NCBI RefSeq assembly: GCF_000189635.1
Contig: NW_002476437.1
Coordinates: forward strand, 70,005 to 134,004
Origin: Tetrahymena thermophila SB210
Taxonomy: Eukaryota; Ciliophora; Oligohymenophorea; Hymenostomatida; Tetrahymenidae
Reading direction: 5' to 3'
Length of the DNA stretch: 64,000 nucleotides
The position numbers were made by a program, and so were the translations under genes. Shown here piece after piece: positions 218 to 41,472 of the stretch; positions within the stretch are counted from its first letter, which is position 1; the number at the start of each line of letters is the position of its first letter. A model generated the notes under the pieces. The model was given only the letters and a program-made list of their open reading frames with translations, was not told where the DNA came from and did not search any database.

Positions 218-1591
218 TCATATATACCTAAAACCACAAGGCAAAGGATTTTAAACTATTTACTCGATTTGTAATTATTACTCTATTTATTTTTAGTTAT
301 TTTCGTTAATCTTCTTGAGCTCTTTTTAATAATATTTTTCAAGAAAAATTTAACTTTAAATACTGTATTCGAAATTTTCTATTTCAATTAAATTTGAATA
401 TTTATAATTGTTAGGAAAAATCTCATTTTAGGGGGCTTTTTTAATAAATTCTTATCTAATTTTCAGCAGCTATTCAATATGCCAAGGAGTTATATCATAT
501 TCAACTAAACAAAATTATTCTATTGTATTTAATAGAGGGTACTATTCAAATTACAACTCAGGTGGATATATGATTGGGATAGTTTAAAATCTACCTTTAC
601 AAACTATTTTAATTTAATCAAACGTCAATAGCTCAAAATCTTCGATTTCTAATATTAGTCCAGATTGCTATTTCTGCTGAGCTTATATGTTACATTTCAT
701 AATTTATCTTCTTGAGTTTTGGGTTAAAACTTTTAAAAATGCTATCTTTGAAACATTACACAAGACATTATCACTTTCAAATCCGAGAAGAGCAATCATC
801 GATTAAGAAAATGAAATATTAGAAACAGTAGTTGTTTAGTTTGTTAAGGATAAACTTACAGTCGCTATTTAACAGAATCGATCTTAGTTGTAGATCTACT
901 CTAAAATCTACTTTCTTTATTAATTTTTGATATTTTACCTTTTATTTATAATTTCTTCCAATTTTTAGTCACCACACAAAAAAGAATTTTGTAGGTCTTA
1001 GATTTAAGCACTAAGCATGTAAATTAATTCTTAATGTTTTTTCAAAAACTTAGAGAATTAGTATAGCTCTTAGTCTTAAGAATTTTCCTAATAATATATC
1101 ACAGATTAGAAATTTTTAAGAGGACTAACGCTTGTGAGTTCAAATTAAGTTCCATAATTATCTCTTTCTATAAAAAGAGCATTTCTCTACTCTCTAAAGA
1201 TATCTATTCCCATATCGTTTGTCGCATCTTTCAATTCAGCTAAAATGTCTCCTGCTAAAAAAAATACTTTTTAAGAAGGGATTTATTTAATAATGCTTGT
1301 TTCGTATTGAAGTTTTGACTGTATCTAAGTTAACTCTTATAAATTTGTAGAACTGTATGTATAAGCTATTTTCTTCATTTGCAGCTTAGGTTTTCTCCCT
1401 CTTTTATATGTTTTTTTGCCATCGCTACATTTGCTAATCTTTTTTTTAAATTAAAATGACTGTAAAGACCAAGATTCATCCTTCATGCTACTTGCACTGC
1501 TCAGATTGTCTTACGACTAATCCATTACTTCCTCACTTTTCGAAAATTAATCTTTATCCTTTGGTATCTTCTCACTTTCAATTTAACTCAT
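218..1591 (-). CDS. Tandem family copy 1, PAS-like protein
   Basis: Single-exon frame of 457 residues with TGA as the only stop. I do not recognise a named family. The N-terminus (about 1-95) is charged and low-complexity and holds a basic patch with RGRKPK, which resembles an AT-hook. A conserved block follows at about 105 (FFLAGDILAELKD), then NALFIERDNYGTQFEL. Next comes a helical stretch with QDQELYQFSKFLKKH, then a PAS-like region (SMIALLGFESDN, then DFELLTFDQIKIVC, then IPIIYPPELQF). The end carries FLEKYYQKEL. All these blocks recur in the five genes downstream on the same strand, so this is one tandem family. The basic N-terminus suggests a nuclear, perhaps DNA-binding, role; that is inference. 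The start is the first ATG in a frame that stays open to the stop. Confidence 0.85.
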
Positions 1592-1699
1592 TTCTTCAAT
1601 AAATTACCTTAATTAATCTTTTAAAAAAAATTAATCTATCTATATATGTTACTTATTATGATTATTTTGTAAAGACTACTCAAACTTCAATTTGTATTC

Positions 1700-2140
1700 C
1701 TGTTTGTAAAATAATCAAAAATATTATATTAATTAAATATCAAATCTCTTAAAAAATACTCTACTTTTTAATTAATATTTGATATTTTCAAAATTAATTC
1801 CTAGGCTTGGCTTCATCAATGTAAGTGACCATAAATAATTTTTACTTTATAGTCTACTAAAAAAAATTAGTACATGAGATGTAATATCATAAATCTTTAT
1901 TTAATACTTATGATAATTGTTTTCAGCGAAGAAAAATTCAGGTCTTAACTCTAAAAGCAATACAAAATATTATAGAAATTAATTATAGATCAAATCTCTA
2001 AAAAATATAATACTCTATAAATAATATTTGATATTGTACATATTGTAAAATATTAATTCATATTTTTTAATTCATCAATGTAAGTGATCGATCATACATT
2101 ATTTTTATTTCATAGTCTATATCGAAAAATAACCAATTGA
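1700..2140. repeat. Diverged direct repeat between family copies 1 and 2
   Basis: Two related segments of about 180 bases lie roughly 250 bases apart, near 1700-1885 and 1950-2140. Both contain ATCAAATCTCT, then TTAATATTTGATATT or AATAATATTTGATATT, then TTCATCAATGTAAGTGA, then an ATAGTCTA-like end. The rest of 1592-2488 is AT-rich with no gene that I can see. The repeat may be a duplicated upstream region of copy 1, or a small non-coding unit. I cannot tell which. Confidence 0.6.
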
Positions 2141-2488
2141 GATTTAACACCCAACATAATTCTTCTATTTTAATAGAATTAAAAAAGGTAAATTTAGTGT
2201 TTTCTCTAATTTATTTAGAGTCCATAGTTTCTAAAATGTGGACCAAAATATACCATTATAGCGATTTAAATTTTTGGTTATTTGTAATAAAACTAAAAAC
2301 TATGCCAAATTAAATTTTCGTAAGAGAAATTAGATCTTAAAAATTATCAAAAATCAAATAAATTTTTAGTTTTTTTTAATTATAATAATTTAATAAAATA
2401 TACAATAGAAAGTTTATTTAATATTTGAATATAAAATATAAGTTAATAGATACAAAAAATTTAAATAATGATTAGTTGTTTTGGTACT

Positions 2489-3814
2489 TCATTAAGTATT
2501 AAGTTAAATGGTTTATTATGATGAACTACTTTGTTAGGGTTAATCTATTTATTTATTTAAATCATCCATTTCCTTCTAATAAAATTTTTCTAGAAAAATT
2601 TAACTTTGCATACTTTGCTAAAATTTATCATAATCAATAAACCCATTATAATCATAGTTATGAGGAAATGGTTGATTTTATGGAGCATTTGCAGCCATTT
2701 ACTATCTTATTTTTAGTACATCTTAAATTATTTTAAAATTAATTTCATGGTGAACAAGGATGAATTTTTCAATTTTATTTAAGTCAGGGAAATATTAAAA
2801 TTATAAATGCTTAGGATAATTAATATTAAAGCGCCTAATTCGAGTTTTGCAAGTAATTTTTATATTATCAATAGTATTAAGCTGAAAGTCATCAATTTAA
2901 AGTTCATATTGATCAAATCCTTCTTAAGTAGCTTTAATACAAAACTCATCCATTTTATTCCTTGTATTTTCATCTAAAACCTTCAAACTTCCATATTTAA
3001 GAAATTCATAACAAGTGTCATCATAATTACCTCCTACTAGTGCAATTAATGGCTTAGACATAAAGCGGTTTGAAATAGATTTTGTTTAGTTTTCAAATGA
3101 TAAGCTCTCAGTTGTAACAAGGCAAAAGTCATCATCAGAACAAAACTCTTCAATGAGCTTTCTTCTTTATTCTTTAATAAATTCAGATCTTTCTTTTATG
3201 ATATATTGCAAATCCTCTATCCCATTCAGATAAAAGTTCTAAATTTCTTAAAGTTATGAGCTAATTTTAAAAATTACTTATTAATGTTTTTTTAAGTATT
3301 AAGCAAACTCATATGAATCTTTATCTTAGAGATTTTCTAAGTAATAAATAGGTTGTGAGAAATCTTTTAAAGGGCGAAAGCTTTCAATTTCAAACGAAAC
3401 TCCTTTTTTAGTCTTTTCAATGTATATGTGGTTTCTATGATATTTATAAAGCTAAATTCTATCTTCATTTTCAACTCCTTTCATTTCAGCTATCATGTCG
3501 CCTGCTAAAAAAAACAATTTTTGAGAAGGGACCAATTTTTATATCGACAGATCAAAAAAGCTTGTATATTATTCAATGCTTAGATAGTTATTGATTGAAT
3601 TAACCCCAAAAATAACCCTTTTTATTTGGTTATTTTGTCTTTCAGATTTTTTTTGCTTCTATGAATCTGGTTTTGAAATCTTTTTTTTGATTAAAGAAAT
3701 GGGAGCAGCTGGATACATTTCGCTGTTACTATCTTCATCTTAAAGAGTTTCTTCATTGAATTATTATAAACTTTTTGGAGAAATACTTAGATTATCTTAA
3801 GCTAAAGCACTCAT
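2489..3814 (-). CDS. Tandem family copy 2, PAS-like protein
   Basis: Single exon, 441 residues. It has the same order of blocks as copy 1. The N-terminus is acidic and then basic (LIKKKISKPDSQKQKKSER). FFLAGDMIAEMKG is at about 100, followed by RNHIYIEKTKKGVSFEIESF and then QDKDSYEFAQYLKKH. The PAS-like region carries PLIALVGGNYDD, IDDFQLNTIDNIKITC and INYPKHLQF, and the end has FLEKFYQKEM followed by a Q-rich tail. It is closest to copies 1, 3 and 4. Its upstream gap of about 1.6 kb is the longest in the array. Function unknown. A PAS fold would imply sensing or dimerisation, but this rests on motif shape only. Confidence 0.85.
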
Positions 3815-5414
3815 TTTTCTGTTTTATAGCTTTTTTTTTGATTTATAATTTTTGTGTTTTTGCTAACAAACAAACAAATAAATAAACGAAAGGTACAATT
3901 TTTTACAAAAGATAAATTCTAATAATAATCAATAAATATATAAGTAAAGAAATAAGAAGTACAAACTTCTTCTCTTGTTTTTGTCTGTAATATGATCAAA
4001 ACTAACCAATGACTAGCTATTTATTTTTATGACTACAATTCAATTATCAATAATAGGATTTTTATTAAATCTAAATTAATCACAAATTTTCTGTTCTTGC
4101 TGCACTCATTGCTTCATCTTACTTAATAATTAATTAATACTAAGTGCTAAAAATATTTTACTGCAGATAAGATATTTAAACTTAATGATAAAATAAATAC
4201 TATTTTATAGAAGTAAAATTCTAATCTAATCTAAATTTAAATTTAAATTTTTGAGAAAAGAAATAGAAGCTTTCGAGATTAAATTATGTTGTTCTTTTAT
4301 TCTATAGAAATTCTTTTTTCTATGATCGTAGATAAAATTCTTTGTTAAATATAACTTTAATTTATTTGAGGTAAATCGCTGCTAAAAATTATCTTTCTAG
4401 TTCATATAATTAACAAAAATACAATAAATTAAATAACTCTTTTAGTTGTAAATTACATTTTTTTTTATTTCACTTATATAGTAATTTAATATTCATGTAC
4501 CTGAAGATAATTTTTATGCATTAACAAATTTCTGATGAATTAAAAATTATTATTTGAAATTAAATATGTTAAATGCTAATATTTACACATAATTATTACA
4601 GTATTTTTCATGTTTTATTTAAATTTATGCGCTTCTTACTAATTCGATAGCTATCACTTTTTAATTTTCAAATTAACTTTCAAGAAATTATCATAAATAA
4701 AATATTTATTGTTTGCAATAAATTTATATAAAAAATATGTATTTTCTTAACAAAACTAAATAAATAAAATAAAATGATATTTTTCAAACCTTATACTTAC
4801 TTTAGCCTTTAATCAATTAAACTTAAGCATTACAATCAAATAGTGAATTAAAATTATAAATTAAATAATTCAAATTAAGTTTGTTATTTATCATTAGTTA
4901 CAAATAAAAGAAAGTAATATATCTTTATTCTATATTGTATAATGTGAGGTAGATAAATATTTTTAAATAATTTATATTAATTTTTATAAAAATTATTTTT
5001 TTTGTTCTTGTTTTAATTAACTTTTTAAATAGCTACACTGTGAAAATCAGTAAATAGTGTCATCAACAATAGATTTTTCATACAACTCATAAAGATAAGA
5101 CTAAAAAATGAAATATAATGAGTATTAAATGAATCAAAAAGCAAAAACTGATATATGTGATGCTATTAAAAATTGACTATGTTGTTCTATTTTTAAAAAG
5201 CAATAAAAGTCAATTATATTCTTAAGATTTTTAATTTATAAATTTAGAATAAATTTTATTTTTATTTTTAAAATGAATTTTAATTTGAAAAAATCTATTT
5301 TCTATCAATTTGCATTATTTTCTTTTATATTGTTTGTTTGATTATAAAAAATAATTTTTTTAGAGCTAATAAATGACTGACTGATATTAAAAAGATTAAA
5401 TATTTAGTTATAAA
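3815..5414. other. Intergenic, no gene seen
   Basis: About 1.6 kb of very AT-rich sequence with no sustained frame on either strand under the ciliate code. It separates family copies 2 and 3. Its length would fit a lost array member, but I found none of the family motifs in it. Confidence 0.6.
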
Positions 5415-6674
5415 TCAATTTAACAAATTAAATAATTCCTATTGATAGTAAGCCTCTAAAAATTTCAAATTTTAGTTTGTATTATTAAATGATTCATAAT
5501 CTATAAAATTCTAGTACTAATAATTTTAAGGAAATATTTATTATTGAGGTGATTTAAATACTTAGCTCCTTCTGATTTGCATTACATTTTAAATATTTTA
5601 CAAATCGATATGATAATTAACTAGAAGAAACATCTCTCTATTATTTAAATGTGTAAAAATAGGAAACTATAGTTCACTAGGATAAATAAGTGGAATAGCT
5701 TCTACTGTTTTATTGCATATTATTTTAATTTCATCAAAAGATTCAATCTCAAAATTTTCTATTTTTACTACAAATGCTGCTTTATTTTATGAGTGAGCCT
5801 TTTAACTTGAAAACATAACTTGCTTTGTTGAGTTATTATTAAAAACTTTAGTTATTGCGAATTTTAAATAATTAAGAGAAGTTGAAGTCTCACTTTCTAT
5901 TCCTAAAATAGAAATGAGTGGGTGCGTCATAAAAATATTTGATGCTGTGCTTGTTGAATTTTAAAAAGAAAGACTGATAGACACAAGCATTTAGAATTAA
6001 TTATCGCTGCAACGCTAACTAATTATTTATTTTCTCTATGCATTTCTGTAAGCAGATCTTTTATTAAATAAAATTTGCATATCATCTGCTCCATTCGAGT
6101 AGAACTTCTATATTTCTAACATTTAACAGTTTATCATATGAATGATTCTTTGATGTATTTTTAAATATTCTGAGAATTCATAGCTATCTTTGTCTTACAA
6201 GCTTTCCAAGCATTATATTATATATGCTAAGTCTTTTTAAGGATAAACGCTTTCTAATTCTAATGATATTCCTTTGGAATATTTCTCCATATACACTATA
6301 TTTCTATATTATGAATATGTCCAGCATCTTTCTAGTTGATCAGCTCCTTTTAATTCAACGATAATATCTCCTGCTAAAAAAAAAATCTTCTAGTCAGGAA
6401 TTTATTTTAAAATTTAAGTATTGAAATCTAGTTATTATTTTTTTTGTTAAAAATAATTAGCTGGAACAACTCCATAAGTTGCTGATTTCATATCTTAATT
6501 TTTATTTAAAGATGTATTCTAAATTTAAGGATTTTTAATTAGAGACTTTTTCTATATTTGACTCGAACTATTTGAGCTTGAACCTTGATAAATGCTCTCT
6601 TCTTCTTCAACATTTGAGGATTTCTTTTGATTTAAAAAATTTAAATCTATAGAATTAGCTAATTTAAATTTCAT
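5415..6674 (-). CDS. Tandem family copy 3, PAS-like protein
   Basis: Single exon, 419 residues. The N-terminus is serine-rich (YQGSSSNSSSQIQKKS) and less basic than in copies 1, 2, 4 and 6. It holds the family blocks FFLAGDIIVELKG, RNIVYMEKYSKGISLELES, QDKDSYEFSEYLKIH, PLISILGIESET, ENFEIESFDEIKIIC, IPLIYPSELQF and FLEAYYQQEL. It ends shortly after the last block, without the Q-rich tail of copies 1 and 2. The start is the first ATG that keeps the whole frame. Function unknown. Confidence 0.85.
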
Positions 6675-7136
6675 GTTCTTAAAACTTAAATGAATAATAA
6701 TTTATTATTAAAAATTATAGCTTATTTTAATTACATTCTTCAAACAATTTTTCTTATAAAATGAACAATGTGTTTGCTTCTATTTCAATTATAAATATCA
6801 TTCTAATTTTGATTAGTTTTTTAAATTATTCTTGTGTTAAATATAAAAAATTTAAATGAAATCCATCCATCTAATCACTTTTCTGGTAAAAATTAATTTT
6901 TATTTTTTAAAAAAATTTGCTAAAATATAAATAAATATTCAATCAATCATATTCAATAAATTTTAACATTTAATAAATAAAATAATAAAAAAATTAATTT
7001 ATTAATTTTGTTTAAAAATTTATTTGGTATTTATATAAATTAAAAGCTTAAGTAAAACTTTAAACAAAGAACCAAACAATAGTGAAAAAATTGATAATCA
7101 CACCATTTTCGATAATTAATTAAAAAAAGTTATTTT
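6675..7136. other. Intergenic spacer in the tandem array
   Basis: AT-rich spacer of about 460 bases between family copies 3 and 4. It must hold the promoter of copy 3 and the 3' end of copy 4, but I can identify no specific site. Confidence 0.55.
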
Positions 7137-8426
7137 TCAAATTAAAATATTTTATTTTTAGATTTTGTTAAATTATTTCTCATAATATTTTTTGAGGAAT
7201 TTCTAACTTTCTGAGCTGCTTTTTTAATCCTCATCAGTACTAACTTAACTGTAATACTAATAATTTTCAGGAAATACTTTGCAGTAAGGTAAGTCTTCAA
7301 ATTAGCTCTCTCTTTTAAGCAGAATGTTTTAAATACTCTCTGAACTAAACTCATAATAAGATACAATAAATTTTTCTTTTTAATTTAGTAGAGGAAAATT
7401 TTAAAATTATAAATGAGCTGGATAATTAATTGGAATAATTGTCGCTTTTCTTTCAGAACTTATTTTAAAATTATCAAATGTCTAAAGCTCAAAATCTTCA
7501 GTGGTAATTTCTAATTCTTCTAAATTTTATTATTACACCTTCATCCCTATTTCCATTATTTTTTTCCTTGATTCACTGGTAAAAATGTTAGATATTCCTT
7601 ATTTAAAATATTCATTTGAAGTATCATTATCTCCTCCTAAAAGAGCCATTAAAGAGTTTGAAAAAAATATATTAGACATTGTAAAAGCCTATTTTTTAAA
7701 TGATAAACTTATTGTTGAAATCGATAAAAACTTATCATCGTGAGAATATTTTTCAATTAGCTTCTTTCTCATGTTTTTTAAATAAATATTTCTTTGTATT
7801 ATTATATCTTCAATGTCACTCATACCATTCAAATAATAGTTTTAAACTTCTTATATTGATTAACTTATCATGCTCAACAATTAGGATTACATCTTTAAAT
7901 ACTATGCTAGGTTATAGCTATCAAGATCTTACGAATTTTCTAAGTAGTATATGACAGGTTTAAAGTCCTTTTAAGCGTTTAAGCTATCTAATTCTTTTTA
8001 TATTCCATATTCTGTTTTTTCTACATATAATATATTCCTACTTTGGTTATAGAATTGCTTTTTGTTTTCATTTTCTCCCTTTTATAACTCTACATATACA
8101 TCTCCAGCTAAAAAAAACAATTTTTATGAACCAAGCATCTTCTAAATAGACAAATTATTACAATTCTTATAAAAATCATCTTGGCAAAACTACTAATTAA
8201 TATGATATATTCCATAAATCACTTTCTTCATATTTTTATTCTAATGTTTATATTTTTTTAAAACATTACTTTCTTCTTTTTAAATTTATTTTCTTTTTTT
8301 GCATTAATACGTCTACATACATTCATCGCTGTTGTTTTATGATGAAAAGTTGTCTTCTGCGATATTTATTGAAACTACTTAACTCTGTTTAGAAGAGCTT
8401 TCAGGTTCTTCAAAATAAAAAATCAT
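7137..8426 (-). CDS. Tandem family copy 4, PAS-like protein
   Basis: Single exon, 429 residues, intact. The N-terminus has basic runs (CKKRKQIQKEESNVLKKYK). The family blocks are LFFLAGDVYVELQKG, RNILYVEKTEYGI, QDLDSYNLAQYLKM, SLMALLGGDNDT, EDFELQTFDNFKISS, IPINYPAHLQF and FLKKYYEKQF. The block after the first is degraded compared with copies 1-3 (IQKELDSLNAQKDF). The neighbouring copies lie on the same strand with spacers of 0.5-0.7 kb, so each copy is probably transcribed on its own. Function unknown. Confidence 0.85.
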
Positions 8427-9091
8427 ATTTTTTAAACTTTAATCTTTTGTTTTATTATTAATTAATTTCTAGTTAGCCGATCGATTTTTAATTTACCACC
8501 TCAAGATCTACAGAAATAATAAAGATTTATTCAAAAAAAACAAACATAACATTCAATAATCAAAGTTAATTTTTGTTTATCAGTAAACAAACATCCATAT
8601 TAAATACGCATAAAATAATAATTAAATAAAAAGTAAATTATATTAAACAAAAACACTGATGAATGAATGAAGATAGGTATGTAACCTAATTTTTATATAA
8701 TTTAAAAGATGATAAGATAATTATTTTTTCATTTCATTTCTATATTACCAAATTTTGTTTAATATTTCCTTTAATTTTTTTCATATTTGCAAATAAATAA
8801 TATTTCATTTCCATATTTGCAAATAAATAATATTTCAGTAAATTATTTTAACTTAATCTACTAAAGTAAACTCCTAAATTATTAATTTTGAGGTGCTTAA
8901 ATGGGGAAATAATTTATATTTGTATGAGCTCTCAAAGTATTTTTTGAAATTTCTAGATTAAATTATTTTGATGAGTTTATTTATTAATTCTTTTTATACT
9001 TATCAATTTATTTAATTTTTAAATTATTATTAAAGCTTTAGAACAACTTATTTAAAAGTACACGAATTTCTTGTTTTTTCAGCTTACTTTT
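8427..9091. other. Intergenic spacer in the tandem array
   Basis: AT-rich spacer between family copies 4 and 5. Apart from a short tandem duplication at 8782-8838 I see no feature in it. Confidence 0.55.
8782..8838. repeat. 30-bp tandem duplication
   Basis: The 30-base unit beginning CATATTTGCAAATAAATAAT occurs twice head to tail with almost no change. It lies in the spacer upstream of family copy 5's stop codon and of copy 4's start. This looks like recent slippage rather than a functional element. Confidence 0.8.
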
Positions 9092-10342
9092 TCATATATA
9101 TTTGTATGAGCATGTTTAAAGTAATCTTTTCTTCTAAAATATTTATTAATTTTTTGATTTTTTTTATTAAATCTATTTTTCATAATATTTCTCAAGAAAT
9201 ACCAAGTTTTACATGTATGTTTCGAAATTCTCAGCTATGTATTGATCTAATTCACGATGCATGTAGCTTTATTTAATGTTTAAGTTTGAGATTTTAGCCT
9301 CTCTAGTTTGTATAACATATTTTATGTTTTCTATTGAAATATTATATTTAATGATAAAAAGATAGTCAAATTTATTGATCAAATCAAATTCTTCACCTTT
9401 AAATAGCAAATCGCTTGGATAATTTAAAGGAATTGCTGTTATTTAGCAAGGAGTAGTGAGTGGTATTTCATCAATTGTTAGTATATTGATATTTGGATTT
9501 AAGTAAGTGAATGTTTGATTAAGTTAAGAATTTATTATTTCTAGAGAGCTTAGTAAAAACTCTCTTCTAGAATGCTTAGAAAACATCCAAAAAAGAGTGT
9601 TTTTCATTACATAATTTATTAAATCTTCTGTTTCTACACCATTCAATGCAATCATCGGATTGGAAAATGTATAATCAGTTAAAATATTAGATTACAAACT
9701 CATATCCAAACAATAAGTAACCGTCTAATAAAAATCTTCGTCATTTACATACATTTAAAGGCTCTATTTTTTGTATATTTCTTAGTATTCCTTTCTCTTG
9801 CATATTATTTGCTCTATCTATGAGGTTTCTTACTTTAAAAATAACCTTTCAATAGTATTTTTCAAATTCATAATCATAGGCTTTACTTTCAATAATTTGT
9901 TAGCAATTGTGTAATTTTCATTATTCTAAGTAGAATAAAGTATTTCTGCTATTCTCTCATAATCAAAAGTAATTTCATTGCATCCCATTTCAAATTTCAC
10001 TGAACCATCATTATATCTTTAACTAAGCTAAACCATTTTGCAGTGATTAAACACTGAGTTTTCAATTTCTTCATCAGAACTATAAATTTCTATCAAATAT
10101 CCACCTCCTAAATGAAATAATCTTTAACTTTTTAGGCATCTTTCTATTGTCAAATTATTTATATTTTTGTAATTACACATCCCAACAAATTTATCTCTAT
10201 AATCATTTTTTTTATCAAATTTTTAATGGCGTTTACTATCTACAATAATTTCAATAAATCCTTAGAAAAATTTTGATGCACCACGATTTTCTGGCTATGA
10301 CAATATTATTTGCTAATCTCTATTAACTAATTCTATTTCCAT
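9092..10342 (-). CDS. Tandem family copy 5, diverged PAS-like protein
   Basis: Single exon, 416 residues. This copy is clearly related but diverged. The LAGD block has become LFHLGGGYLIEIYSS, and the N-terminus is shorter (DSKRHQKFDKKNDYRDKF is its basic part). The PAS-like half is kept: NPMIALNGVETED, FWMFSKHSRREFLLSS, ILTIDEIPLTTPC, IPLNYPSDLLF. The end keeps FLEKYYEKQI and then SYKYI, where copy 6 has SYKPIVV. Copies 5 and 6 form a subgroup, both with a longer helix and with 'F.MF...SRR' in the PAS-like domain. Function unknown. Confidence 0.83.
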
Positions 10343-11007
10343 ATTATTTGTAGTGATTGAAGAAAATTACCTTCTTTATGATTTATTAGTAAGAAAAAGT
10401 TTGAATTAGTTAATATCAATTATTTTAATCAATTTAGATTGCTAAATATATTAAATATTCACATATACAAAAAAGTAAATGTAATTAATCCTACATAAAT
10501 GATTTTTACATAATATTCACCAGAAATTTATTAATTGCATTAATAATTGAAATATATTAAAAAAAAGAATGTATTTTCGCAAATTGATACATAAATTATA
10601 TTCATATCAAAAATCTCATAAAAAAATATTATATTCAATTACCTACAATTATTTTCATTAGAAATCTAAAATTATGATATTCTAATTAAAAAACTAATAA
10701 TGTCTTTTAATTACTTAAATATAATAAATAACATCATCAATTCCAATTAGCTGATATTTTTTTAATAGATATTTAGTTGAAGATAGATGATGAACCAATA
10801 ATAAATATTCAAAAAACCAAAAATGAAAACTTCCTTAAAATTAAATTTTAAAACCAATTTTAGAGTAAACTTTTAATATTTTAATTAAAATTATTTGGTT
10901 TTGATAAAAAGATATTATACGAAAAATATAAATTTTTAAATTATATTGAATGCTCATTTTTGATATATGAAATATATTAACTAAAAATTGATTTTCTTAA
11001 TTAATTT
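10343..11007. other. Intergenic spacer in the tandem array
   Basis: About 660 bases of AT-rich sequence between family copies 5 and 6. No gene or recognisable site seen. Confidence 0.55.
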
Positions 11008-12369
11008 TCATACAACAATGGGTTTATATGAACACACTTATTGCTATTTTTTTTTTGTGTTAATTATGCTTTCGTATTTTTCATTATAAAATTTTTGCAA
11101 AAATAGCTCAGATTACATATAATATTCAAAGTTTTATGCAATTTATTTGCTTTCTTGATCCTCTGATTAGCCATTTTGAGAGTAAATTTCAGAGTTTTAG
11201 TCAATAATTTATTATCTTAATTTTATTATTCTTTCTAGATGCTCCTAAGTTAAAATAAATTTAAAAAGGACAACACTTTCAATTCCATTTATTTAGCTCT
11301 AATTTTCATTAAAAAACTGCAACTCTTCTGGGAATTAAACTCTAAATGTATGTAACTAAGTGCAACACTTAATTACAATATTATCCAAGGTCATCAACTC
11401 AAAATCGGGTATTTCTTCAAATACTCTATGTTGATCTATATAATATTTAATAGAGCATTCCATAATTTTTCTTCTGCTATACCCATTAAACATTTAAAAA
11501 AGTCCATTTCTCATTACATATATAATATAATCCTCATTTACTGTTCCTAGCAAAGCTAATATTGCTTTAGAAAAATAAAAGCTAGTTAATTGTGTAGTTT
11601 TCTATTCCCAATTAATTTAGAATGTAACAAGCGTGGTAAATTCATCTCCTTACAAGTAAGTTTAAGATAATTCCTAGGCTTTTTATTCAATGAACTACTT
11701 TCTTTTCTAAACAATATCAATAAGTTATTTTTCTTCATATCTATCTATAATCTATATTATCTGATGAGTTAGTAGACTAATTGGTGCCTAATATAGTCTT
11801 ATTAGCTTAGAAATATAGTATTTGTCTTAGTCTTATGATCTTTCTAGCAAACTTATTACATATTCGTAATGTGATACGATTGCTGTATTATTTACATAGA
11901 TAGAAATAACTCCATCATTAAATTTATTTACATGTTCTATAGTTTTCAGTGATCCAACTACTTAATGATCTATTTGATCCTTTTACCATTCTAATTCAAT
12001 TATAATCCCACCAGGCAGTATGTAATGTTTTTGAAATTAGAAAATCTAATTAAATAAATATGAATCAGCTACATTAATTATAGAGTAATCAACTTTTTTC
12101 ATTTTATTCACTTTTTTTCTGCTGACTTTCTTTTTTAAAAGTTATTTATATTTAGGAATTGCTAACTTATCCTCAGATAGTGTTTATTAATCCTAAAATA
12201 AAGATGAATTATATTAAACATCTTTTGATTGCTCTGCTTCTTAACCAACTACATTATTTTCATCATTTTTCTAATTCTAAGAATCATTAATATCTAGCTA
12301 ACCGAATAATGGTATCTAATTTACAATTATAGAGCTTTAACTTGATAAAGAAGAATCTAAAATACTCAT
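11008..12369 (-). CDS. Tandem family copy 6, diverged PAS-like protein
   Basis: Single exon, 453 residues. The N-terminus is acidic and Q/N-rich, then strongly basic (KYKQLLKKKVSRKKVNKMKK). The first conserved block is HYILPGGIIIELEW, where copies 1-4 have FFLAGD. The PAS-like half shows AILALLGTVNED, LFQMFNGYSRRKIMECS, DFELMTLDNIVIKC and QFPEELQF, and the end has LFLQKFYNEK. It is closest to copy 5. It is the first gene of the array in transcription order. Function unknown; a nuclear regulator would fit the basic segment plus a PAS-like fold, but this is inference. Confidence 0.83.
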
Positions 12370-16497: not shown

Positions 16498-19400
16498 ATG
16501 AAAAAGTCTTCTGTAGTTCCATAAAATAAAAAAGTTTCTTAGTTTGCTTAATAAAGCTAAAAAGATCATGACGATGAAAGATAAAATATTCTTAAATAGC
16601 AATCTTCAATCAAGTCCGACTCTAATTCTGCAGCTTCTATAATTTAAAATCAATAAGATTAGTAAATAAATGCTAATTATTAAGCTAATTCATAAGAATA
16701 TATTGATGTCATGAAACAACAAGAGCAAATTCTTATACAAAAGGGTATAAGTTCTCCACATAAAGATATTAGAAGAGATTCAATTGATTCAAAAATGTCA
16801 GAGAGTTTTATTGATAGCGAAGCAAATAGTGATAGCGATAAAGATAGTGGTGATGAAAATAGTTTATTTGGTACACCTGAACAAAATGATTTAAAAAAAG
16901 ACTTTAGTATGCCACCTGAACTTAAATTAGACTCAGATTAAAAATAAAGCATTGAAAAAGAAAAATAAAGTCATGATTAAGGAGTTTAAGAGCTAGTTTT
17001 GAAGAAAGAATAAAGTAAAAAAAGTTTAAAACAAAAAAAAGACTCAACAAATACAAAGAGTAAACCCTTGAAAAAAAACAATAAGAAATCAAATAAATAG
17101 AAATAAGACTATTAAGATGATGATTTTACTTTAACTAATTAGGTTGGTAGAAATATACTTCATAGGTAGTGTCTCAAATAGAATGTGGAAATGATCTAAG
17201 ATTTGTTAGTTTAATATAAAAAACTTAAAGAATTAGAATATTTGAAATAATAGAAATAACAATAATAATAATTTGATGTTATAGAATTGTCACCAGATTA
17301 AGCTCTTTAAGAATATATAAATCAATTAGATAATTTTGGGAATTCTCCTCTAATCTTATGTTGTATACAATAATTTGATGATGAAGTTAACTATAGGTAT
17401 GAATGTCTTAAACTACTTTTAGAAGCTGGTGCAGATGTTAATCATCGTAACCCCAGAACACTTTGGTCTGCCCTACATTGGTCTGCTCATTATGGTGATG
17501 ACAAAAGTATTTAGCTTCTTTTGACTTTCTAAAGTAAGGATTTAAAAATCCAGACTCCTTTATTGCAACCACTCAATTTAAATTAAAACTACTAATTTAA
17601 TAAAACATACCAGTGTTTTCCAGATTAGCAAGGTCTTTTCCCTCTAGACTTAGCTGGAATATCAGTAATTCAAAATTTTATATATTTAATATGATTTATG
17701 ATAAAATTACAAATATTTGAGAGTAAATAAAACATTAATTTTTAGTGATTTGTTTGGTTTAAATTCATTTAACATTATTTTTTTGAAATAAAATAGGGTA
17801 ACTAAGATGCTGTAAATATTTTGCTTGAAAATCTCGTTTAGGATATGAAAGAAGTAGAGAAAATTCAACAAAATTAAATTCTCTTAGAAGATGAAATGTT
17901 ATTTTATCAAAGCAATCTTGATTAAAAGTTTATGAGACAGTAAAGAGTTAAATATTTGAAGTCGCCTCTCTTGAAATCTCGCTTTTTGTACTGGGCAGCC
18001 TATTATCCGGGATAAAAGTCTAAAGCATTTATCACTGCTGCTTTTGGTTTCACTTAAATCTACGTAATGGCAAGGCTGTAAATATAAACAAACTAATTTA
18101 TTTCAATATATTATTAATTTTATTTCTTTTAATTAATTAGACCTCATTAATCATTAATGACACCTTTACATGCAGCTGCAAAGAATAAAAATTTAGATGC
18201 TTTAAATATTCTTGCTGATAATATTAGATATCAAAATATTAGGGAACTAAAGGATTGGATAAAAAGAGAGTATGAAAAAAGATTACCATAAGAGTTTTTC
18301 TTCTCTAAATACTAAAATTCTGTGCTTTAAATGATTCCAGAAGAAGATCGTTTATACAAACCTTCGTTTGTTAATTAAATAAAAAAATTTGCCTAGTGGG
18401 AACATGAATTTATAATGAGCTACCGTAAGTATGAGTAGGATGAAACAAAATATACATATATTGATTAGTAAATAATAGTTTTTTTGTAAATTGTATTATT
18501 GATAATTTTATTTTAAATTAATTAAAAGGAAAGATGCCTTTGGAAATACAGCTTTGCATCTAGCTTCTATTAACGGATTTGATGAAGGAGTTGTAAAACT
18601 TCTTAATTGTGGAGCAGATATGGAAACTGGTAACAAAGAGGGGTGGAGACCAAGAGAATTAGTATAGTTTTAAACTATTAGGCAAATTTATTACTAAGCT
18701 TTAGAAAAAAATTAAGGTTTATCCCTTCAGCTTAAAAACATGAATAAATAGCTTCAGCAAACGATTAAAAAATATAAAGTAATTGTAGAAGATTAAATTG
18801 ATAATGCTAATAAAAAAAGAGAGAAAGATCTATTTGCATATGGCACTAAGCTCTTTTTACCAGATTTTGTAATTGTTTTCTCATTAGGATCAGATCCTTA
18901 AAAAGCCAAAAATAACTAAAATAGAATGAACTTCTAAATTGGTATTTTGAGAAGATCAAAGTTTAATGTTTATCTCTTAGAGTCCGTCTATCCTGACAGA
19001 TATTATTTATTAATAGGAATGCCAGAAAGATATTTGTAACAGGCTTGTAAAGAAAATAAAGTATTTTTTTATTAAAATCACTTTAAACATTATTTTATTT
19101 AATATAAATTGGTGATTTTTACAATAATTTAAAAAAAAATTTTTTCTACATTTTATTAACAAAACAGATGCAAATGAAACTAATAGACTCATATGATTAT
19201 GAACCATATAGCTTGGATCAAGTTACAAAATTTGAGCCTTTTCGTTCAAAGCAGAGACAAGAAATTATAGAAATGCAACTCAATAAAATTATAAACCTTT
19301 AAGACTTAAAATCTCAAGGATTAATAACATAATATTATAAAATGCACACATATGGAGGTAAATCAAATAATCAATCAATTTAATGAAGGTCAAAGTGTCT

Positions 19401-22400
19401 ATAATAATTTTAATCTTAATATTTTAGGTATATCTAGAATTAAACACTAATGGGTTGATGACACTAATTGGTACTGGCCTCAGCCTTTAAATTAGATGGA
19501 TGACTATTTGCTTGAAGACAAAACTTAAAACTTTACTTCGGTAACGCTTCTAAGACAATACTTTGGAGAAAAAATAGCTTTCTTTTTTGGATGGAAAAGT
19601 TTTATCACCTGCTTTATGACTTTAATTGCTGTTCCTGGTCTAGCCCTTTAAATTTATGTAATACTACAAGATTCTGACGACTACAATAACTATTTAGTTT
19701 CTTTTTATGTACTTTATGTTATGATTTGGTCAACTATTATTGTCGAGTTTTGGAAAAGAAAAACATCTGAAATAAATTATAGATGGGGTACTTTGGATAT
19801 GATGAACAATCCTGACATTCTAAATAAAACTCTAAAAGAAGATTTTATTGGTGATGAATGCATATCTACTGTCACAGGAGGTTTAACTAAATACTAAAAG
19901 AAATCAAGAACAGTAAGTAGATTTTTAAAGAATATATTTAAATTTAATTTTCATTATAAATAAACACTTAGATAATTAAATTTTTAATCTCAATGCCTAT
20001 TTTGTTTGGCTTAATGGCTTTGGTTGTCTATATATTTATTGCTATCGATGATTTTAAACAAAAATACACATCTCCTGATTCAACAGATTTTTAAAATAAT
20101 TTGTACAAAGCTATAGCCGGTGCTTTACAAGGTGTTGGAATTTAAGTTTTAAACTTTATTTATACATATTTGGCAAGATATTTTGCTCAATAAGAAAATC
20201 ATAAATATATTTTCCAATATGAAAGATCAATTATTTATAAGCTTATGTCATTTAAAGTACTGAATAGTTATTTTGCACTATTTTACATTGCTTATATTTA
20301 AAAAGATTCTAATTTTTAGACTCTTTTTTATATGCTCCTACCAATTATGCTCATCAAATAAGTAAATAAATATAAAAATAAAATTGATAAATTATTTATT
20401 TATTTATTTATTAAATCAAAAAAGATTAATTACACCATATTAAATGTGTGGCTACCTATTTTCTTGTATAATAGAGCAGAAAAGAATTATTTTAAGCAAG
20501 TAAACAAAAAAATTATGGATCACGAAAATATTTAAGGTTAAGTTATGCCAGAAAAAAGAAAAGAAAATTAGGATATAATTGAGCAATACTGGAACGATAT
20601 TTCAAAAGAAGATATGAAAAACCTTTCAAGAGCAGTCATTTCTTTGCAGGAAGGTGAAGAAGTAAAAGGTGATAAAAACGATCCTAATCCTACAATTAAA
20701 TTAATTAAATACATTGACGTAGATTCAATCGAGTTAAATTCTCTAAGGCAAGAATTCTTAGATACCGTTAATTTCTATGCTGATGGGTTTATTGATTTAG
20801 GCTATATTACTTTATTTGCTTCAGCGTTCCCAATAGGTCCTTTCGTTGCATTAATCATGAATTCTTTAGAAATTAGAAATAAATTAAATGTATTTATGTA
20901 TATCCTCAAGCGTCCTACATGTTAAAGATGTGCTGGAATTGGTGATTGGCTCTTTATTTGGGAAACATTTTCATTCGTCTCAGTGGTATGATTATAAATT
21001 CAAATTTCTTTATTTTATCAAAATATATCTTATCAAACATTTTAAATTTAAATTTTGATAAATTAGCATTTTTTTATTTTTAGTATTACAATTTTAAATT
21101 TTTATCTGATTTAATAATTTACTAATAAATTATTAATTCAATCTATCTTTGAAAGATAAAAAATGGGGTGAGGAGTTCTCTCCAAGACTTTTTCAAAAAA
21201 CATTCTTTAATTCATTTATATTAAAAATGTTTTTTGATATTTATTTTATTTTTTAAAATTAAATCCCTGTATAAATCAACTATAATTTAAAAAAAAAAAT
21301 AATCAATAATTTTAAAATTAAAGATTACAAATATAGGCTTGCTCTACTATAAAGATTAGAAACTGATAGATTTATTTTTGGATCCTAATTAATATAGTAC
21401 ATCAGAATTCTAAACCATTAAAGTTTGGTTATATATTTGTCTTGGTATTGCCATAGTAATATTGAAGTATATATTCCAAGAGCTTATTTAAGATAAGCCA
21501 GAATGGATTATGAGAGAAGAAGAGAGATGGGCTTACTTAGAATAAATCCAAAAAGAGTATTTATTTATTTATTTATTTATTTATTTATTTTTGATAATAT
21601 TTTCTTTTAATTAATTCCATTTTAATTTTAATTTATTTTATTAAAAAGGTAAGATGAAAAATTACTTCAAAATCATAAGAAAATAAAAGATGAAGAAGAT
21701 AAAAAGAAAAAAATTGAAATAAATCAGATTAAAAAAAGATATGAAGATAAAATAGCTGAAAAAGATGAAGCTTTATTAGATTTATAGGATGAAGTTAAAT
21801 ACTATAAAGAGGCATGTCCTCCAGAAGCAATACAAAAGAGACTGAATAAGGATTAAAAATTGAATGGTAATCAAAGTCAAATTGGTAAAAGTAATCTCTT
21901 TAAGGCAAAATCTGAGTATGAATTAAAGGAATTTGGAGTTTTTAGAAGTACTTATATTAAAATTGAAAGAGAGTTGCTCATTCAAAGAATGAAATAAATT
22001 GAAAGCTTAAATGTAGGAACAATCATGATATGCAATGAATGTGGTAAAAAATTATCTGTTTTCGAATGCATAGAATGCGATTTAACCTTCTGTAAATCTT
22101 GTTTTGACGAATACCATAACTTTATTCAAAAAAATGACCATCAAATACACCTTCTAAATATAAAACATGAAGATTAGCAACTCTATTCAAAATACAACAT
22201 ATTACATATAAATGGTGAAAATAGTTACCTTTTAGAAGAAAATAGATTAGAAGTAAATTTTTTTATTTAGATTTTTTTGTTTATTTATTTAAATCTAAAA
22301 TTTCTAAAGATATTTTATTCTTTTGATATTTTATATTAAAAGTATATTAAATAGTTTTATTGAAATAATTTATTAAAAATGATTTACAAATTTTGAATGG

Positions 22401-37124: not shown

Positions 37125-40100
37125 TCATACTTCAATAACACTAACTTAGTTAAAATCTTCTATTGGAATATTTATATTTGTTTATTATTGCTTTTTCAAA
37201 ATATTTAACTGCTTTTTAGCTAAAAATTGTCTCATCTTTTACTAAATTTTAATGGCTGCAAATGTAAACTTTTAATTTTTCAATCTTTATAGCTTCTTTT
37301 TGGCTAAAAATGATCTAATCTTTGATTGAATTTTAATCGCTCCCCTAATAATAAAATTTTTATTTTAAGGCAAATAAAGAAATTAAATTACAAAATTAAT
37401 TACCAATATTAGAAGTATTTTTTATCAAGATTTTTTTCCTTTTTTAAATCTGCTTTTTACCCTATAACCATAAGTTGGATATCATTATTAAAGGCTAATT
37501 GCATATTATTATCTTCTTCACAAAAATATTCTTTTTACTCTTCATTATAAATTTCTTCCCAATCATAATCTGGATTTTGGCAAGAAGCAGGTGCAGTAGA
37601 AATTGCAGTTTCTTTATTGATTTCTAAGTCTTCTTATAAGTTGTTTTATTTAAAAACAATTTAGAACATCTTGTATGCCATCGCATCAAGCATTTCAGTC
37701 AAAAACGAGCTTCTTTCTGAACAAGCTGGACTTAAATTTACTTCAAGCAACCAAGGATGAGCATACTCGTCTAACAAAATATCAAAGCCATATAACTCAA
37801 AGCTTTTTTTTCTGTTGACAATTTTGTCTGCTGCACATTTAATTGTTTCTATAACTAAATCCTTTATTTTAGGCTTTACATCTTCCTGATAATCTATATT
37901 TTTAAACTCCTTCAAATAACTAATGAAATCTTTTAGCTCAACTACAGTCTCATCCCAGTTTTCTTTGGCTAGACTATTTTTATTTAAACTGAAATTTGTT
38001 AAGTGCTTAGAAAGAATCTTAATATTGTCCAAATCAAAAGATTAGCTGCACACTCTTAAATAGCTGCTTGTAAAAAAATAAATTTTGAGAGGCTTAAAGC
38101 TTGTTACCAAGACCCATTATCGGATGTCAAATTTTTTATTGTTCAGTTTCTTATATTTTGCTCCTTGAAATATTAAAGGCCTCTCAATATACTTTTAAAC
38201 TATTCTCGCCTACATTTTTAAACCACTGTCAATAGCTTCGTCTAATTTATCTACTAAATATATCCCAGATCCTCTTGAATTAGCAGATGGTTTAATTATC
38301 CAAATATTTTTTGTTCCAGAAACTTTAAATTATGGGTCAGCATCTTTGAAATATTTATACAATGAGTAAAGCTTTTTCATAAGTTTCATAGATGGAGATG
38401 ACCAATGTTCTTTTGACATACCCACGATCTTTTCAAATACAAACTTTTCTTCATCGAAAGGTACATTAATTTTAACATACTGAGAAATCATAGACTCCAA
38501 TTTAAAATTTGTTTAGTAAATATATAATTAGCAATCTCTTGATTATCTTGTTTCATCTATATATTCCTCTTACTATCTTTTTAATTTTTTGAGTATCTCC
38601 ACAGCTTCAGCTATCACAGTAATGTTAAAAATAAATCTGTTATCTCTCTTCGTATCTTCGTACATTAAAGGACTAAAGAACTTCTATTTCGTTACTTTTG
38701 CAAAGAATATCCCATCTTTTACTTAAGCATTTAATTTATTGGCTTGCTTCTATTAATAAGCTTGCTTGATTTCCTAATACGTTTGACTTCTTCTTAGCTT
38801 TATATATTGTATGTGCTTTTTCAACAGATTCATCACATTCATTCTCTAAAAAAAATAATTAATATTAAATAAAGTTTTTTAAGTAATTTACATTAAATTC
38901 ATTAGAAAATTCTCCTCTTTCCTGATCATTTCCAAGATCGTAGCACCTTGGAAAAAATAATTCCTAATTTACACCAAATTGTGTGTTATTTTTCAAGTTG
39001 TAGAGCAGTCTTCCCTTTTATGTAAGCTCAGTGTTATTTTTAAAGTGGTTGTAAAATTAGTTATCATTTAAAAACTTGTAGTCATCATTTGAATCTATAT
39101 AAATCCATTTTAAATCAAAATTATTATTTAAAAGAAGTTTATTTTCTTTCCAGCCCATTCTAAGAAGTGTCCTTCTGACATATTCATCTTATGAGTTGAT
39201 AAAAAATGTTTTTTGTAATTAATTATTTGATTATCCAGCTTAATTTGCACTTGCTGATTATATTTTAGTTTTTTTTAAATTTTATTTATCATTGTTCTCT
39301 TTTAAATTAGTGTTTTAATTTTAAGGATTAGTTTGATTTTGATTATTGTTGTCAGAATTTTTAACAGTAGAATTATTTTTTTATCTTAAAGCTTATAAAG
39401 AAATAATTCTATTGCTTGTGGTAGAAAAATTTGATGTATTAGTAGTGGTTTCTTATTTAAAATAGTTATTGCTTTGCTGTTAACTTGTTACAATTTAATT
39501 GGATTAATTTTTTTTTTATTAGAGCACATTTTCCTTTTAAGTATTTTCGTTTTCATCATTTTAAATTATTTCAGCTGCATTTAAATCAATCGAATTTTAT
39601 TTAATCAAAGGGCTTTGATCATCATTTAAAACTTAATTTTATTGATAATTATCATCACCATATTACTGAATCGAATTTTATTATGAGATCACTGAAGAAG
39701 TTTGATTTGACTATAAATCTTTTTGATTTCCTTACAGATTATTTTAATTTATTTTAAAAATTGTTCTTTTTTTGTTTTTGGCTACAACTTTATTTTGACT
39801 ATCAAGATAATCTAAATTTTTGTTGAACCTTACGTTCTACTAAGCACTTTTAAGAATATCCTTTCTGTTTGAATATTCTTTTGAAAAGGGCCGAGCCAAA
39901 GTTGTCAGAGTTTTACCAAACATATTTGGTTTCCTTTCTGTTTGCTCATTTTCTATAACAATTAAAATAAAATTTAAGAAAATAAATATTGAATTTCTAT
40001 ATAAATTTACTTATTTAATTTTAATTTGTAACAGAACTTGCAACATAAATATGATGATCATTTAACATTTGATCTAGTTCATTTTCCCTGTTTTCTTATT

Positions 40101-41472
40101 TTTGGTTTAATTCTTGTACAGGACTTCTAGGAGAAGCTATAAAATCTTTAGGAACACCTGCCAACTAAAAAACATTCTAAAAAGAAAAGCCAGTAGTTTC
40201 AGTTGAGCCTAACTCAGCAAAATCATCATAAAAATTTTAATCATTTAAGTTGCTATTTAAATTATTTTTTTCTATACTTTAAATTTTTAGAGGTTAGGAA
40301 ACCAAAGAAGAAGGCTGAGAATTAACAGAATTTTGTTGCTAAAATTTGACCTATTTACTATTTGGTCTCGTTAAAATGATTTCTTTGAAGTTTTTTAGAT
40401 TAGAAATATTTTTATAGCTATTTAAATTTGCAGACTTAGGAGGTTTCATGCTTATTCTATTATTGGATTCTACATTTTATTATTCCTTGATCTTATTTTT
40501 AGTTTCTTGTTAAATAAGTTACTGTTTTTATTTATACGAAAAATCTAAATTTTGAAAACCATTAGAAGCAGCTGCATATTTAAGAGATGAATTTGTAATT
40601 TAAGCAGAAAAAGGTTTCTATTATTAGTAAAAAACCTTGCTACTCTTAGCAGCAGAACTCCCTAAATTGTTATCCTAACTTATTGTTTTAGCTTAAGAAG
40701 GTTTTAGCCATCCATTAGTGACAGTTTATGATAGTTCCTTATTGTAAATTCTAGACAAACTTTCAAATCTTTTCATTAACTGCTCCTTTCTCTACTAACT
40801 AGGTTTTTTTTCTTCATTTTTATGATTATTTAATTAACTTTGACTTTTATTTTAAAAATTACTTTTCTTCTTTTTTTAAAGCATTTCATTAGTGTTCTAA
40901 TAATTAAAATCGTAATTTCTTTAAGTGCTACTATTGTTGTTGTTGTAGTTGTAGTTGTAGTTGTTGTTGTTTTTGTTTGTTGCATCCTCTACTAATAAAT
41001 TATTTCTATTTTCAAAAAATGTGTATCGAGTTTAATAGCCAAAAATATCTCCTTCATTTAAAAACTAATTATTTTCTTCGCCTTCCTATAAATAATTTAA
41101 TTCTTCTTAGGAATCAAAAGAAAGAATGGATAAATCTTCTTCTTTCTAAAGATTATCTTACTAAGCTTAATTTAAAGATTCTAAAGAAAATTTATTGTCT
41201 TAATAATTGTTTATATTTGCAAAATGATTCATTTTATTAATTGGCGTATTCTTAGGTTGTAACTGAATTTAATCTGAAATGTAATTTTTAATCTTTTTAT
41301 TCTCATATTTATCCTATTCTTGCTCAATTAAAAATTGGTTGTTTGGATAAAATTTAGGCTTTTGTCTTAAATTATTATTCTAATTTTCATTAATAAATTA
41401 TATATTGTTATAGTTGCTTTTGCTGCTGTTATCAGCGTCATTTAAAAAATAGTATTCAAAAGGCAATATCAT
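37125..41472 (-). CDS. TTLL3-type tubulin glycylase with IQ motifs
   Basis: Four exons, 41472-40011, 39952-38892, 38845-37404 and 37344-37125, 1,394 residues with matching phases. The first 740 or so residues are Q/N/K-rich and low-complexity. The TTL domain follows: WKENKLLLNNNFDLKWIYID, then FFPRCYDLGNDQERGEFSNE at about 825, which is typical of the TTLL3/8 glycylase group. The ATP-grasp core shows IIKPSANSRGSGIYLV (about 1020), KKFDIRQWVLVTSFKP (about 1080) and FELYGFDILLDEYAHPWLLE with VNLSPA (about 1190-1215). Two IQ motifs (AIKIQSKIRSFLAKKKL, AIKIQQKMRQFLAKKQL) lie near the end and predict calmodulin binding. TTLL3 enzymes add the first glycine to tubulin tails in cilia. Glycylase rather than glutamylase rests on the FPRCYDL block. 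Confidence 0.88.

Follow-up and report, generated by a model that had tools for sequence, protein, structure and literature searches.

The bHLH-PAS factors AHR, HIF2-alpha and ARNT combine a basic helix-loop-helix (bHLH) region with two PAS domains, and LOV photoreceptors have in their PAS core a photoactive cysteine that is conserved; ligand binding is not a property of every PAS domain. Here we describe an array of six genes in a 64,000-nucleotide stretch of the Tetrahymena thermophila SB210 genome (NCBI RefSeq assembly GCF_000189635.1, contig NW_002476437.1, positions 70,005 to 134,004 of the forward strand; hereafter the window). The six genes belong to a large, old and constrained family of about a hundred loci. 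Its core has a predicted PAS fold, a term we use in place of proven PAS homology because sequence methods detect no PAS domain, and its most conserved feature is a short segment at the C-terminus.

In predicted topology the family core is like the PAS-B domains of the bHLH-PAS factors and of NCoA1, which lead the structural match list of copy 1. The aligned identity in the listed matches is, however, only ∼8–13%, and, unlike the bHLH-PAS factors, the family has a single predicted PAS core and neither bHLH nor PAS among the Pfam matches listed. The first matches of copy 6 are PpSB1-LOV and PpSB2-LOV and the chimeric LOV-histidine kinases, in which a PAS core is likewise flanked by long helices, whereas no kinase or other output domain was recognised in the family; nor was any enzymatic domain among the Pfam matches listed. 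In contrast to LOV photoreceptors, the family has no conserved cysteine in the PAS core, the commonest being present in 20 of 66 alignment rows at one column, in the strand that follows a T-x-D-G turn. As to family size, the leucine-rich-repeat expansions of Tetrahymena, as far as they are described in the available passages of Xiong et al. (2019; PMC6564038), are also large tandem-duplicated ciliate families, but are built on another domain, and the window frames show no introns. According to the same passages, the species-specific genes of Tetrahymena frequently lie in tandem, evolve rapidly and show little expression in axenic culture, and seven domains dominate the young genes, PAS not being one of them.

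Under genetic code 6 all six homologous frames were recovered as complete family members, following one another head to tail on the minus strand just as the first-pass annotation had described them (six paralogues of 416–457 residues). With stops included, copies 1 to 6 lie at 218–1591 (457 residues), 2489–3814 (441), 5415–6674 (419), 7137–8426 (429), 9092–10342 (416) and 11008–12369 (453). Glutamine is encoded by TAA and TAG within the six frames, TGA is the sole stop, and the genes appear to be intronless, as judged from their open frames. The start of copy 1, at 1591, is its first in-frame ATG. For copy 4 the start may lie at 8426 or at 8552, of which the latter is its first in-frame ATG and would give 471 residues. 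Identity to copy 1 is 38, 35, 36, 25 and 26% for copies 2 to 6 respectively, and 31% between copies 1 and 6 across the folded core. The sequence blocks which were said to be shared, in order, by all copies are present, with some of them degenerate: in place of FFLAGD, copy 5 has FHLGGG and copy 6 YILPGG. A seventh array member, carrying a basic run KKKKKK and the tail CSYRPI, lies on contig C113 at 68302–69381, its frame beginning ∼0.4 kb to the left of the window edge, and a search of the whole window with the family profile gave no members beyond the six. The G+C content of the window is ∼19–26% per 4 kb. In 20 simulated windows with dinucleotide frequencies equal to those of the real one, a total of nine open reading frames of at least 416 residues was obtained, compared to 15 in the one real window. 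This excess, together with the occurrence of six homologous frames in a row, indicates that the frames are not there by chance, and chance open frames are further rejected by the substitution ratios given below.

The extent of the family was determined by searching the genome (101 Mb in 445 contigs) with nine family members as queries, membership being transitive and match counts being lower bounds. With copy 1 as query, at least 26 matches were obtained within E ≤ 10, and 24 of these were below 1e-6; the eight other queries, divergent members, gave at least 53, 20, 18, 25, 18, 48, 16 and 48. The searches were merged by hand, dropping repeated places and rows with E > 0.001 and joining two neighbouring pieces on contig C91. 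The resulting 117 places merge into at least 116 loci, spread over 61 contigs, and 108 of the loci have E ≤ 1e-6. When clusters are defined by gaps of no more than 12 kb, 69 of the 116 loci fall into 19 clusters, each of which (19/19) keeps to a single strand. A profile built from 26 members scored all 65 members with excised DNA at 60.8 bits or more, and the 39 of these outside the building set at 60.8–246 bits. The C-terminal helix motif SQxFxEK[FY]Y, written as a degenerate DNA pattern, has 53 sites in the genome, whereas the reversed control has 11. Of the 53, 46 fall inside family loci or no more than 200 bases from one. The other seven (C39:415513, C67:68868, C78:445379, C168:180225, C168:183318, C258:33949 and C318:121860) may be further members, the same segment in other proteins, or chance matches, of which the 11 control sites give a measure.

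The family is protein-coding and under constraint. In ten pairs of close relatives picked by hand, the ratio of non-synonymous to synonymous substitution rates (dN/dS) was 0.12–0.49, and thus below 0.5 in every pair. The three lowest ratios (0.12, 0.14 and 0.19) come from the pairs with window copies (copy 1 twice, copy 6 once; copies 2 to 5 are not among the pairs), and these ratios are rough, since with dS > 2 the silent sites are saturated. The remaining seven pairs gave 0.27–0.49 at dS values of 0.19–1.04.

Structural models were obtained with AlphaFold for copy 1 and for the 263-residue core of copy 6, each from an alignment of the six window sequences. Both models run from long helices through a strand-strand-helix-helix-helix-strand-strand-strand unit to a trailing helix, and this order of strands and helices is the PAS order. 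In copy 1 the predicted fold corresponds to 488–889 on the minus strand (model residues 234–367; two strands, three helices, three strands), preceded by a predicted long helical pair at 890–1090, also minus (residues 167–233); in copy 6 it corresponds to 11248–11643, minus (residues 69–200 of the core), with the same topology. In Foldseek searches of the PDB, 40 of the 50 chains listed for copy 1 are of PAS type, counting the TlpA chemoreceptor domains as non-PAS. The PAS-B domains of AHR and NCoA1 come first among the matches listed, with HIF2 and ARNT also near the top. For copy 6, 49 of the 50 listed chains are PAS/LOV or PAS-containing, with a best E-value of 3.9e-4 at probability 0.99. 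Chains were classed by title; DosP, EL222, EL346, YF1, the phytochromes and a few others were counted as containing PAS domains. The earlier suggestion of a PAS-like core thus agrees with the modelled topology of copies 1 and 6, including a predicted five-stranded sheet whose second and third strands are separated by the helices, but receives no support from sequence profiles.

Conservation was measured on an alignment of 66 rows, which includes one duplicate fragment; the other family statistics refer to 65 members, some of them partial. The G of an L-L-G block is invariant (66/66 rows), a serine six columns ahead of the first L of this block is present in 62, and the T-x-D-G turn between two predicted strands retains its T in 61, its D in 63 and its G in 38 of the 66. 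We take the conserved residues of these two blocks to resemble PAS motifs. All 66 rows share one arginine in the helix that follows the PAS core, and residues of the C-terminal helix are likewise invariant or nearly so. The median pairwise identity is 0.15 in the N-terminal domain, 0.15 in the helices, 0.18 in the PAS core and 0.44 in the C-terminal helix.

Conservation in the family is thus highest in the C-terminal helix. In copy 1 it has the sequence FEYSIQSQIFLEKYYQKEL (317–373, minus strand; model residues 406–424), and its motif reads SQIFLEKYY in copy 1, SQIFLEKFY in copy 2, SQKFLKKYY in copy 4, NLVFLEKYY in copy 5 and SELFLQKFY in copy 6, and is degenerate in copy 3 (LKFLEAYY), where the frame stops soon after. 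A conserved C-terminal block had been recognised before in this helix, but the cysteine-containing tail which follows it had been missed. This tail, of the type C-x-[FYI]-[KR]-x-[ILVMP], is found in 41 of the 60 members with a definable tail (five of the 65, in which the helix expression found no match, were set aside), at a median of 23 residues past the helix and, in 26 of the 41, no more than five residues from the end of the protein. Shuffled tails gave on average 0.34 matches, with a maximum of 3 in 500 trials. Copies 1, 5 and 6 carry the tail, as CGFRYI (221–238, minus strand; the last six residues of copy 1), CSYKYI and CSYKPI respectively, and copies 2 to 4 do not, with no remnant seen by eye in the three frames behind their stops. 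As copies 2 to 4 form a single clade, one loss of the tail would explain its absence.

We propose, with confidence that is evenly balanced, that the family is a repertoire of soluble PAS sensors or adaptors in which the core varies and the docking end stays constant. The proteins would begin with a low-complexity, often basic N-terminus, followed by a small N-terminal strand/helix domain and the long helical pair, and would continue through the PAS-fold domain and a further helix to the C-terminal SQxFxEK[FY]Y helix and, in most members tested, the tail. The combination of a long helical pair and a PAS domain suggests that the proteins form dimers, or possibly heterodimers. The variable PAS core may bind a small ligand or a protein specific to each paralogue, and the near-constant C-terminal segment would couple the paralogues to one common partner. 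A core that varies beside an end that is nearly fixed is the pattern expected if many paralogues dock on one partner and differ in what they sense or bind, and in this sense the sequence pattern predicts such a partner. Because of the basic N-termini, the partner is probably nuclear. In the tail-less clade of copies 2 to 4 the interaction with the partner may be altered or uncoupled. If the fold holds, one genome would contain a large PAS-type repertoire which is invisible to sequence profiles.

A bolder form of the proposal, which we hold only tentatively, is that the family is a combinatorial set of a hundred PAS sensors or adaptors feeding one hub through the constant C-terminal helix and tail, with the tail-less copies as decoupled regulators. 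Were this so, sensing would be modular, the input varying and the output plug staying fixed, and ciliate biology could gain a new hub of signalling or gene regulation.

The basic N-termini suggest nuclear or nucleic-acid contact, and are neither universal nor well alignable. They also allow another explanation, namely that the proteins are DNA-binding transcription factors whose N-terminus binds AT-rich DNA, whose PAS domain dimerises, and whose C-terminal helix and tail recruit a co-regulator common to the family, in a mode of action that would be analogous to that of bHLH-PAS factors. A basic patch (at least six K or R in 12 residues) is present in the N-terminal region of 35 of the 65 members, and in only 9 of 65 in the longer remainder of the protein. 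The prominence of bHLH-PAS PAS-B domains in the Foldseek list of copy 1, and the motif RGRKPK near the N-terminus of copy 1 and in its two nearest relatives, point in the same direction. However, 30 of the 65 members have no strong patch, the N-terminal region can hardly be aligned (median identity 0.13), and there is no DNA-binding domain among the Pfam matches listed. AT-hook proteins have an RGRP/RGRKP-like core; as RGRKPK occurs in only 3 of 65 members, it cannot define the family, and the AT-hook was rejected as a family feature. Of the basic, AT-hook-like N-terminus originally annotated, the basic character therefore stands for about half of the members and the AT-hook does not. On balance, we consider this transcription-factor explanation unlikely.

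Several results weigh against the proposal of a PAS sensor or adaptor repertoire. The models, which derive from six-sequence alignments, are of moderate quality, with a mean predicted local distance difference test score (pLDDT) of 59.9 for copy 1 and 71.2 for the copy 6 core. No Foldseek E-value for copy 1 is below 0.02 among the matches listed, the largest TM-scores by target among the listed chains are modest (0.54 for copy 1, 0.57 for copy 6), and several of the top matches have a root-mean-square deviation above 20 Å. A Pfam search with 26 members found no PAS family among the 16 families matched (16/16), and one with 65 members found none among the matches listed (25 of 49 families). Searches of the PDB with sequence profiles yielded no PAS chain and no convincing relative. 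Aligned with hhalign to a seven-row PAS profile, the family core reached a probability of 0.1%, no better than column-shuffled controls (0.0–0.2% in the first 5 of 30), whereas true PAS domains left out one at a time from the same rows scored 18–96%. No conserved cofactor residue is apparent in the PAS-core columns of the 66 rows, and 19 of the 60 members, among them window copies 2 to 4, do not match the tail expression.

The lack of a profile link to PAS, in a test which does recover true PAS domains, and the moderate confidence and modest scores of the models are also what would be seen if the PAS likeness were an artefact of low-depth models, the true fold being another alpha/beta sandwich and the family a ciliate invention. 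Against this, the models of two copies agree in topology, and their Foldseek lists consist mostly of PAS or LOV chains; we therefore regard a different fold as distinctly unlikely.

Neither Pfam nor the PDB provided a convincing sequence relative of any other kind. In the Pfam search with 65 members the matches were weak and scattered, the best having an E-value of 0.0027 and no family being matched by more than two of the 65, among the matches listed; a relative of this sort was rejected, which bears out the first-pass view that no named family has this layout. The classical PAS profile PF00989 found two places in the genome at E ≤ 0.001, C209:390313–390609 and C439:33467–33634, neither of which is a family locus. 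A literature search covering titles and the beginnings of abstracts found no paper on the family, whose members Tetrahymena gene databases may name otherwise or list as hypothetical proteins. The main text of PMC6564038 and PMC10868616 contain no word beginning with ‘PAS’, and the available passages of PMC5182062 and PMC3341644 have nothing on the family.

The history of the array was examined in a maximum-likelihood tree of 65 family cores, some partial and all from members with excised DNA. Copy 1 clusters with genes on contigs C335 and C82 (support 100/100), copy 6 with a gene on C115 (100/100), and copy 5 is the sister of the seventh copy (100/99). Copies 2 to 4 form one clade (99/93), the only group to consist of window copies alone. 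The window array is thus old and mixed, made up of several lineages and not of one recent burst. An origin of the whole array in a single burst of local duplication is ruled out by the tree, as copies 1, 5 and 6 group elsewhere, and the expansion by local duplication that had been suggested for the array applies to copies 2 to 4 only. Younger amplification is seen on contigs C281 and C321, where recent duplicates differ by dS values of 0.19–0.31 and the C281 copies are 81–83% identical.

Such recent duplicates, the large size of the family, its tandem clusters and its low core identity are features which might be expected of rapidly turning-over environmental or conflict genes, whose diversity would itself be functional, for example in recognising microbes or food-related signals. 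The tandem, fast-evolving and little-expressed species-specific genes described in the passages of PMC6564038 cited above would fit the same picture. However, whole-gene dN/dS is below 0.5 even in the most similar pairs, and several old lineages make up the window array, so that we find this explanation improbable. That the loci are decayed or mobile-element-derived frames with no cellular function is highly improbable: tandem clusters, short contigs with ends that are similar by eye, in-frame TGA codons in a few loci and a weak transposase match (PF02371, E 0.025, 1/65 members) could be cited for it, but the frames are mostly intact, the ten pairs tested all show constraint, and among the Pfam matches listed no mobile-element domain turns up repeatedly.

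The short contigs in question, C281, C321, C268 and C340 (22–31 kb), hold three to five family members each. The telomeric repeat CCCCAA/TTGGGG was not found in the last 120 bases at either end of these four contigs, nor at the right ends of C90 and C113, the left ends of which read N; we therefore do not claim that the short contigs are whole chromosomes. By eye, the ends of C268 and C340 are alike, as are those of C268 and C321, which suggests assembly breaks at a common repeat.

Other genes were recognised elsewhere in the window. On the plus strand are an ankyrin-repeat protein (16498–17694), an anoctamin-type membrane protein (19193–20991; Pfam PF04547) in two overlapping frames that are probably separate exons, and a frame at 21227–22363 with a B-box-like zinc-binding match just below the Pfam cut-off. 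On the minus strand, a tubulin-tyrosine ligase-like gene (PF03133, E 4.4e-56) occupies 37280–38929, and the frame directly upstream of it, at 38607–40244, may be another of its exons.

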